Positions 3,775-53,075 of a DNA stretch of 64,000 bases are shown piece after piece. The stretch spans positions 1,507,698 to 1,571,697 of the forward strand of contig NZ_JAFMZZ010000001.1 of assembly GCF_017356245.1 (NCBI RefSeq), read 5' to 3'. The translations under genes and the position numbers were made by a program. This DNA comes from Bordetella petrii. Its GTDB lineage: Bacteria; Pseudomonadota; Gammaproteobacteria; Burkholderiales; Burkholderiaceae_B. Position 1 is the stretch's first letter; every line of letters begins with the position of its first letter. The notes beneath the pieces are model-generated. The model searched no databases. It saw nothing but the letters and a program-made list of their open reading frames with translations, and had not been told where the DNA came from.

Positions 3775-4911
3775 ATGAAACTAACAAAAACCTTGCTCGC
3801 CGGCGCAATTCTCGCCGGTATCGGCGGCACCGCGTACGCTGAAACGTCGGTGACCTTGTACGGCTTGATTGACGTCGGGATCACCTACCAGCGCGGCAAG
3901 GTCGGTACCGAAGACGCCAACCGCGGCCAGTATGGTGGTGACTACCAATCCCGCATCGGCATGACCGACGGCATCCAGAGCGGCTCGCGCTGGGGCCTGC
4001 GCGGCACCGAAGACCTGGGCGATGGCCTGTCGGCGGTGTTCGTGCTGGAAAGCGGTTTTGGCGCCAGCAACGGCAACAGCAAGCAGGGCGACCGCCTGTT
4101 CGGCCGTCAAGCCACCATCGGCCTGAACCACGAATCGTTCGGCCGCCTCGATCTGGGCCGCCAAACCAACATCGCGTCGAAGTACTTCGCCGACATCGAT
4201 CCGTTCTCGCTCAGCTACCTGAACTCGACCATGGGTTCGGCGTTCAGCGCGGCCAACACGGTTCGCTATGACAATATGGTGATGTACCAGACCCCCAGCT
4301 GGAGCGGCTTCCAGGGTGGCATCGGGTACTCGTTCTCGACCGATGACGTCGAAGGCCCGACCGGCTTCGAAGAAGACGACAACAACCGCGCCATCACGGC
4401 CGGTGTGCGCTACGTGGGCGGTCCGCTGCAAGTGGCCTTCACGTATGACCAGCAATTCCGCGCGCCCAGCCAGCCGCAACCCCAGCAGTTCATTCTGGGC
4501 GCGGCCTACGACTTCGAAGTGCTGAAGCTGTCGCTGGCCTATGGCCGCACCAAGGACGGCGTGTTCGTCGGCCAGGACTTCGACCTGATGGGCGGCGCTG
4601 TCAACCCCAACACGCCCGCCAAGGGCCTGGGCAATACCAACGACCGCTTCACCTGGGACGGCCTGAAGGTCAATTCGTACCTGGTCGGCGTAAGCGCGCC
4701 CATCGGCGGCGCCAGCAACGTGTTCGCCTCGTGGCAGCGCGCCGATCCGAACAAGGGTCTGGAAAACATGGACATCTACAGCGTGGGCTACACCTACGAC
4801 CTGTCCAAGCGGACCAACCTGTATGCGGTGGGCTCGTATGCCGACGGCGCTGCCTTCGTCGAAGGCAACAAGATGACGACGGTCGGCGTCGGTCTGCGTC
4901 ACCGCTTCTGA
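3775..4911 (+). CDS. major outer-membrane porin (beta-proteobacterial trimeric type)
   Basis: A 378-residue general porin. The signal peptide MKLTKTLLAGAILAGIGG ends at AYA (residue 23), and the mature protein begins ETSVTLYGLIDVGI, the hallmark start of Bordetella, Neisseria and Burkholderia porins. The chain ends in GLRHRF with the C-terminal phenylalanine required for outer-membrane assembly. The PEFGG-like loop found in related porins is not obvious. The ATG at 3775 follows a GATGAGGAA ribosome site; the frame is open upstream from 3712 but without a signal sequence. It forms a diffusion channel, probably anion- or weakly selective. Confidence 0.93.
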   Translation: MKLTKTLLAGAILAGIGGTAYAETSVTLYGLIDVGITYQRGKVGTEDANRGQYGGDYQSRIGMTDGIQSGSRWGLRGTEDLGDGLSAVFVLESGFGASNGNSKQGDRLFGRQATIGLNHESFGRLDLGRQTNIASKYFADIDPFSLSYLNSTMGSAFSAANTVRYDNMVMYQTPSWSGFQGGIGYSFSTDDVEGPTGFEEDDNNRAITAGVRYVGGPLQVAFTYDQQFRAPSQPQPQQFILGAAYDFEVLKLSLAYGRTKDGVFVGQDFDLMGGAVNPNTPAKGLGNTNDRFTWDGLKVNSYLVGVSAPIGGASNVFASWQRADPNKGLENMDIYSVGYTYDLSKRTNLYAVGSYADGAAFVEGNKMTTVGVGLRHRF

Positions 4912-31919: not shown

Positions 31920-33311
<1,392 letters not shown>

Positions 33312-33623
33312 CGGGTTCCCCCCAGGTGTCTGACTCCGCAGGTGTCAGACACCACTGCGCGCCATGGTTGCCTCATTTGTGCGGTGTCTGACACCCTTCG
33401 GGAGCCAGACACCTGCCGGCCACCCGCCCCGGCGCCGACTTCCATTTCCGGACACACGGCCGTCATATTCCTGTCGTGTCGGCCGGTTATCCTGCCCGTC
33501 ATTCCCCGGTCTTTGATGTCAGCAATTGTATGCGGCTAAAAAAGGGCCGCATCTTTAAGGCACAATATGCGCCGGTACGCCGCAGGCGGTTTTGTCGTCA
33601 ATGAATTGGGGAGATGACTCAAC
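33312..33623. other. intergenic region between serS and a small unknown gene
   Basis: About 310 bases. The first 100 are repeat copy A. The remainder contains no credible gene but includes an A-run (33537-33543) and the promoter region of the small gene at 33624; no promoter could be placed exactly. Confidence 0.5.
33325..33413. repeat. dispersed four-arm palindromic repeat, copy A
   Basis: Four 13-base units form nested inverted repeats. The outer pair is GGTGTCTGACTCC (33325-33337) with GGAGCCAGACACC (33401-33413), complementary at 12 of 13 positions. The inner pair is GGTGTCAGACACC (33341-33353) with GGTGTCTGACACC (33383-33395), perfectly complementary. The loop is 29 bases. Each inner unit is itself a GGTGTC-N-GACACC palindrome. 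The element begins 14 bases after the serS stop. Further copies are at 46791 and 52986. Confidence 0.85.
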
Positions 33624-46790: not shown

Positions 46791-46951
46791 GGTGCCTGGC
46801 CTGCGCCAGGTGTCTGACTCCCGCAGGGTGTCAGACACCTCAGTTTCACTCCAGACCGTGGGTAATGTGCCAGGCTTCGCCAGGTGCCTGACACCGTGCC
46901 GTTGAGACGGCCGCTGCACACTTCGGTGTCTGGCCTGCGGAGCCAGACACC
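46791..46951. repeat. dispersed palindromic repeat, copy B (expanded)
   Basis: The four-arm pattern of copy A is present with extra units. GGTGTCTGACTCC lies at 46809-46821, GGTGTCAGACACC at 46827-46839, GGTGCCTGACACC at 46883-46895 and GGAGCCAGACACC at 46939-46951. A further GGTGTCTGGC at 46925-46934 pairs with GCCAGACACC at 46942-46951 around a seven-base loop, and a GGTGCCTGGC precedes the set at 46791. It starts eight bases after the MFS stop and ends 28 bases before the convergent FUSC gene stop. Confidence 0.85.
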
Positions 46952-52985: not shown

Positions 52986-53075
52986 GGTGCCTGGCTTCCC
53001 GCCAGGGGCGTCAGGCACCGAAATGGCCGGATCATCTACCCAAGGCGGTGTCTGACACCTTCGGAGTCAGGCACC
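52986..53075. repeat. dispersed palindromic repeat, copy C
   Basis: The same four-unit order as copy A, with GGTGCC variants. GGTGCCTGGCTTCC (52986-52999) faces GGAGTCAGGCACC (53063-53075). GGCGTCAGGCACC (53007-53019) faces GGTGTCTGACACC (53047-53059) with a 27-base loop. The units are more degenerate than in copy A. It starts 12 bases after the ilvC stop and ends 110 bases before pssA. Confidence 0.8.

Follow-up and report, generated by a model that had tools for sequence, protein, structure and literature searches.

A REPIN-like repeat population of Bordetella petrii, probably derived from transposon ends and orphaned in its host

Introduction

Beginning 13 bases past the stop codon of a serS-like gene of Bordetella petrii is a compact palindromic sequence, and the locus raises the question of what kind of element this is and how it came to be there. 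The window, the whole stretch of 64,000 nt that was analysed (G000:C1:1507698-1571697), belongs to a host genome of 4.95 Mb in 14 contigs and contains three copies, A, B, and C. The original prediction saw in them a dispersed family of REP/BIME type, with four 13-base units in nested inverted repeats. Copy A is very probably a REPIN-like non-autonomous mobile element, one of a population of about 250 hairpins built by a REP-associated tyrosine transposase (RAYT), derived from a terminal inverted repeat (TIR) and orphaned in the host.

Structure of the repeats in the window

The gene before copy A (31920..33311, + strand) encodes what we take, from its protein, to be seryl-tRNA synthetase. Copy A consists of two hairpins of about 30 nt arranged head to head, a REP doublet like those of REPINs and BIMEs. 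The first hairpin (33325..33353, + strand), with CCA directly before it, has the arm GGTGTCTGACTCC (33325-33337), the loop GCA, and the arm GGTGTCAGACACC (33341-33353). A spacer of 29 nt (33354..33382), a length shared by 42 of the 54 doublets sampled, separates it from the second, inverted hairpin (33383..33413, - strand), which contains GGTGTCTGACACC (33383-33395) and GGAGCCAGACACC (33401-33413). The four 13-mers lie where they were predicted. The working unit, however, is more than a nest of four: two neighbouring 13-mers form one hairpin, and this hairpin is doubled head to head.

Copies B and C have the same hairpins, mostly more worn. Two further copies had been predicted, at 46791 and 52986, and both exist, but not with the exact unit order of copy A. 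Copy B is a clean single hairpin (46809..46839, + strand) followed by a diverged doublet (46866..46895, + strand, and 46925..46951, - strand), while copy C is a diverged doublet (first half, itself diverged, at 52986..53019, + strand; second half at 53047..53075, - strand).

The 95-nt element folds far below its own shuffles (RNA z -5.93, DNA z -5.06), which bears out the strong RNA hairpin foreseen for it. On both strands of the window, with near-palindromic units counted on each strand, GGTGTCNGACNCC has 19 matches at no more than 1 mismatch against 1.2 expected, the maximum of 100 shuffles being 5. At gathering scores, Rfam identified one tRNA in the window and nothing at the repeats, and copy A was unmatched in phage and plasmid records.

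The family in the host genome

The host genome contains 223 exact copies of GGTGTCTGACNCC (116+107), and a degenerate pattern for the complete hairpin matches it 251 times (125+126); the reversed-pattern controls gave 0+0 in each case. The family is thus not confined to three copies, and its unit order is conserved elsewhere, the two points on which its existence was to be judged. For the pairing and tag counts, 138 hairpins were taken from 80 clusters; since these sites were located either with the exact pattern or through their resemblance to copy A, the sample over-represents good copies.

The hairpin unit has the two arms given above for the first hairpin of copy A, and a loop of mostly 3-6 nt. 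At two pairs' distance from this loop the stem has a single T.T mismatch, which is kept in 127 of the 138. Stem pair 7 is T-A (87), A-T (28) or C-G (3), and stem pair 9 is A-T (77) or G-C (52). The paired positions covary: among 77 distinct hairpins, 97.1% of cells pair, and there are 56 double-change cells against 19.7 in shuffles, with 0 of 500 shuffles as high. The pairs that show a double change number 4, a count that 35 of the 500 shuffles reached.

The commonest bases at the hairpin foot are CA, found just before 108 of the 138. GT[AG]G occurs at the foot in none of the 138, in either reading direction, and at distances of 1, 2 and 3 bases in 0, 1 and 1 of them. In the sampled clusters, 50 of 54 doublets are head to head, and there are 30 singlets. 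These are inverted REPs with a short spacer, over-represented as doublets, extragenic (9 of the 80 sampled clusters overlap a called ORF) and of high copy number, as is required of a REPIN; they are not canonical GTAG REPs, which have GT[AG]G at the 5' foot. The proposed REP/BIME-type class accordingly holds for their small size, palindromic form, mostly intergenic location, inverted doublets and the RAYT linkage in relatives described below, but not for the tag, and no RAYT was found in the host.

Location at gene ends and occurrence in relatives

Of the 80 clusters, 67 could be placed between neighbouring genes, 13 being set aside as overlapping an ORF (9) or having one neighbour missing (4). 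By a crude coding-frame caller, 40 of the 67 lie between convergent genes, 26 between tandem pairs, and one between divergent genes. Convergent pairs hold 17% and divergent pairs 13% of the intergenic bases in the background, which is the window plus 400 kb of genome G123, with ORFs as the crude caller gave them. The distance from the preceding stop codon is often 6-50 bp, so that the clusters are intergenic, as predicted, and mostly just past stops. A reading as ordinary intrinsic terminators was rejected, since a T run (5 T within 8 nt after the hairpin) follows 2 of 138 hairpins only.

The repeats are present in six other genomes of the genus, and two match neither pattern. A covariance model, whose count was limited to about 150 scored candidates per genome and which was therefore used for presence and absence only, places the family in 7 of 9 genomes. 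Copy A itself is absent from the orthologous site after the serS-like gene in all six relatives that can be aligned there (G015 and G103 cannot). By eye, five of these six have a terminator-like hairpin with a T-rich tail after serS; the host does not have it and carries copy A there (window positions 33312-33520).

The other sites were also compared by eye. Site B holds family members, different or worn, in G171, G081, G141 and G123 and is without one in G053; at site C, G171 and G053 again match the unit. Eight further sites were aligned with G123, and six of them carry repeats in host and G123 alike, so that the copies there are mostly old. In pattern-chosen samples, the hairpins of G171 and G123 mostly retain both CA and T.T. 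Those of the G053 species (G053 itself has 323 hairpins by the degenerate pattern) have T.T in 91 of 100 sampled but have not kept the CA tag, and the 7 hairpins of G081 have no T.T mismatch and, in most, the tag GA.

It is possible, if doubtful, that the hairpins are kept chiefly for signalling at gene ends, in RNA or DNA, as a bidirectional barrier to transcription, a protection of mRNA 3' ends, or a site for a gyrase-type protein, and that their mobility is past or irrelevant. Such a role would suit the strong preference for positions past stops and between convergent genes, the stability of the fold in both RNA and DNA, the six shared sites, and the terminator-like hairpins that five relatives have in place of copy A. 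It would also suit the persistence of repeats in 5 of 14 repeat-rich genomes where a RAYT of the associated kind was not found. The scarcity of T runs means that ordinary intrinsic terminators are not involved, however, and selection against gene disruption would leave the same placement. The absence of copy A from all six alignable relatives, and of both repeat patterns from two genomes of the genus, also speaks against a role of this kind.

In the literature searched, no description was recognisable as the host family, and of the 20 papers listed among 78 that contain part of the sequence, none has a title on bacterial repeats. The repeat unit is unlike REP z1 of E. coli. The nearest candidates are the 26-30 bp 'Bor' repeats of classical Bordetella, which are of similar length, palindromic, and near genes (PMC1590033). 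A figure legend in the same paper, however, mentions that they share identities with REP z1 of E. coli, and on this comparison, by description only, it is improbable that the two are the same.

A transposase associated with the repeats

The REP-associated tyrosine transposase that the original prediction suggested looking for was not found in the host, where the Pfam Y1_Tnp profile has no match, but it was found in relatives, flanked by the repeats. Each of the six other repeat-bearing genomes of the genus has one Y1_Tnp match and the two without repeats have none (p 0.08 within the genus alone). Across the family, Y1_Tnp is present in 9 of 14 genomes with at least 20 of the 13-mers and in 50 of 236 others. 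Since five of the 14 (the host and four of genus g4) gave no RAYT of the REPIN-linked kind, the link between gene and repeats rests partly on presumed losses.

Palindromes lie on both sides of the gene at 8 of 9 loci (six in the genus, with G205, G213 and G132); the exception is G132, where the gene is at a contig end and no flanking palindromes are seen. At two g4 loci these are 13-mer palindromes only, the two-arm hairpin not being found (1 poor match each). Two of the proteins, from G123 and G205, were scanned against NCBIfam and match NF047646 (REP-associated tyrosine transposase) at 86.6 and 85.5 bits (cut-off 80). The RAYT also matches PF01797 and resembles TnpA-REP (PDB 4er8, E 1.9e-5). 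Judged by its HUH motif, its Y---NP motif and its NCBIfam score, the relatives' protein is a RAYT of TnpA-REP type, and a dN/dS of 0.19 for the G123/G171 pair makes it look to be under purifying selection. The G053 gene (L171) has an internal stop, although that genome has 323 hairpins. Beside the G123 gene (L173, about 4330-4450) there are, by eye, about three tandem copies of a unit of about 37 bp that ends in ATGTCAGACACC.

The same gene, presumably for a hydrolase, adjoins the RAYT in G123, G171 and G053. In G123 and G053 the RAYT lies between it and a gene that we take to be ugpC-like; G171 has the same hydrolase side and its contig ends soon after. At this locus the host is 92-93% identical to G123, but the 1448 bp of G123 are replaced by 182 bp that contain REPs and lack the RAYT. 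Since the nearest kin carry the gene here, its loss from the host is the probable explanation, perhaps through deletion between the flanking repeats.

The only RAYT relative found in the host has 30% identity and is without the catalytic H and Y residues (L180:1315-2052, minus strand; C4:918951-919361 in its own genome). Its tail is like that of the tailed relatives, and it lies, in the host, beside a presumably gltB-like gene. Similar proteins (30-32% identity to the query) are present in 12 of 13 other genomes tested, and the four repeat-bearing g4 genomes have matches of this kind only. The protein looks like a domesticated dead transposase.

Subclass, tail and tree of the transposase

The motifs NHVH, WE and YIELNP are present at five of the six genus loci; the G053 protein, cut by its stop, still shows NHVH. 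The Y motif varies to YIEMNP in G205 and G213 and to YIERNP in G132. Those of TnpA-Y1 subclass 2.1, the largest class-2 (RAYT-like) subclass of a 2018 survey, are NHVH, W[EQ] and YIELNP (PMC6006769, Table 1), and by motif the proteins would belong there (RAYT group 1, TIRYT). That paper describes subclass 2.1 genes as having no REP-like sequence nearby, whereas palindromes flank eight of the nine genes here. Nor do the REPIN-linked RAYTs have the C-terminal extra domain with HTH similarity of that subclass. They have 56-65 residues after the Y motif (76 in G171; G053 left out), against 100-119 in most tailed relatives. Five tailed proteins were scanned with Pfam, and they too gave no HTH.

It is very unlikely that the repeats form a REP/BIME family of the ordinary GTAG type whose tag has degenerated. 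Such a family would have the same RAYT linkage, doublets and intergenic location, but GT[AG]G is at the foot of none of the 138 hairpins, with CA before 108, and the transposase has the motifs of subclass 2.1 rather than of the GTAG-linked subclasses 2.2, 2.4, 2.5, 2.7 and 2.8 (PMC6006769).

In a tree of 86 rows, built without G243 (whose tail differs from that of the otherwise near-identical P0024), G056 (identical to G020) and the divergent G002, all nine REPIN-linked proteins fall in one clade of 31 rows (support 99/93). This clade is nearest, with midpoint rooting, to the tailed G227 protein and its relatives (88/87). Flanks were examined for these nine of its 31 rows, the other 22 being database proteins. 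A single clade of all 32 short-tailed rows was rejected (p-AU 1.9e-36), short-tailed P0066 (named partial) and P0069 sitting among tailed rows, and P0004, with 80 residues after the Y motif, missed the short-tail threshold. The claim of a short-tailed clade is restricted to the 31 rows.

Origin from terminal inverted repeats

Of ten other Y1 loci, four (G181, G227, G241 and G187) have tailed elements that end in AAGGTGTCAGACT. Five more distant ones (G020, G056, G145, G024 and G002) end in repeats of GGGGTCAG type, which fit the published GGGGWSAS motif (PMC3733652), and the G243 locus has no terminal repeat within 500 bp. AAGGTGTCAGACT is identical at 11 of 13 bases to the outer arm of the host REP with its CA, the T of the T.T mismatch included. 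It has 135+124 copies in G187, 7+12 in G181, 5+9 in G241 and 4+5 in G227, and 2+4 in G205, where no tailed RAYT was found. G123, G053 and G171 have one each, and the host and the other five genus genomes have none.

Read most simply, the REP consists of the old terminal repeat joined to an inverted copy of itself; since the tree is rooted at its midpoint only, the direction from TIR to REP is one that we infer. It is very improbable that the repeats are MITEs belonging to some unrelated DDE-type insertion sequence with ends that read GGTGTC by chance. A short core enclosed by nested terminal inverted repeats does resemble a MITE, but at eight of nine loci it is a Y1/HUH transposase that the palindromes flank, and their core recurs at the ends of sister Y1 elements.

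Two further genomes show related arrangements. The TIR family AAGGTGTCAGACT of G187 (L335) has 259 exact copies on several contigs, often in small groups, and this genome also has a tailed subclass-2.1-like transposase carrying AAGGTGTCAGACT ends. In G024 (L338), GGGGTCAGACCCC hairpins lie on either side of a group-1-like RAYT that extends 75 residues past its Y motif; here the change from TIR to hairpin may have happened a second time, independently.

On the preferred reading, copy A and its family would be a doublet population built in trans by a single-copy, short-tailed RAYT (HUH/Y1, subclass 2.1 by motif), acting on folded single-stranded DNA and copying the doublet to new sites. By analogy with TnpA-REP of E. 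coli and Stenotrophomonas, the enzyme would read a single strand in folded form, together with its irregularities and its tag (PMC8266576). The T.T mismatch and 5' CA are likely marks for it in the host and nearest kin, a claim softened because tag and mismatch vary in G053 and G081. Selection would remove copies in genes or promoters, leaving survivors mostly just past stops, above all between convergent genes. The host lineage would then have lost the RAYT gene rather than never having had it, which presumably leaves its copies immobile today. The source of the REP arm would be AAGGTGTCAGACT, the terminal inverted repeat found in tailed sister transposons.

A fuller history has about an even chance of being right, namely that the birth of a REPIN is recorded in this genus and its neighbours. 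A tailed Y1 transposon with plain AAGGTGTCAGACT ends would have lost its C-terminal tail once, and its end would have doubled inversely to make a hairpin, on one branch with the T.T mismatch and with CA replacing the GTAG guide. This would have spread as doublets to hundreds of copies, after which some lineages lost the enzyme and the repeats stayed at gene ends, possibly for a host function.

Comparison with known systems

The family is best read as a new REPIN variant from a TIRtron end, orphaned in the host. This links one branch with subclass 2.1 motifs to a large REPIN-like population that has a different tag, while relatives keep the presumed ancestral ends. The origin of REPs from transposon ends, and the fate of REPINs after transposase loss, become testable in one genus and its neighbours.

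The REPINs of Pseudomonas fluorescens SBW25 (PMC3116915) are like the host family in being inverted REP doublets with a short spacer, extragenic and in hundreds of copies, and their RAYT gene is close to the repeats, as it is in the relatives of the host. The host family differs in having no GT[AG]G tag, the RAYT motifs differ, and no RAYT was found in the host itself.

The TIRtrons, with their transposase TIRYT, of Di Nocera 2013 (PMC3733652) and subclass 2.1 of Quentin 2018 (PMC6006769) have the motifs NHVH, WE and YIELNP in common with the REPIN-linked RAYTs, and the AAGGTGTCAGACT ends of the sister elements are close to the published GGGGWSAS. Dimers and clusters of TIRs were already reported in 2013, as was a self-complementary TIR family in Stenotrophomonas maltophilia (PMC3733652). 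Unlike those of TIRtrons, the REPIN-linked transposases have no C-terminal tail, and the end sequence has become a hairpin doublet spread genome-wide. The 2018 survey reports no REP-like sequence near subclass 2.1 genes, whereas the REPIN-linked genes are flanked.

With the REP/BIME system of E. coli (y, z1, z2) and its TnpA-REP (PMC8266576), the family has in common a hairpin with a conserved stem mismatch, inverted combinations and an HUH/Y1 enzyme, but in the host it has CA where E. coli has GTAG. In an alignment to TnpA-REP (PDB 4er8), the residues named for GTAG contact (PMC6006769) are replaced in the REPIN-linked RAYT, Q95 by E, E100 by S, H101 by R and R104 by D.
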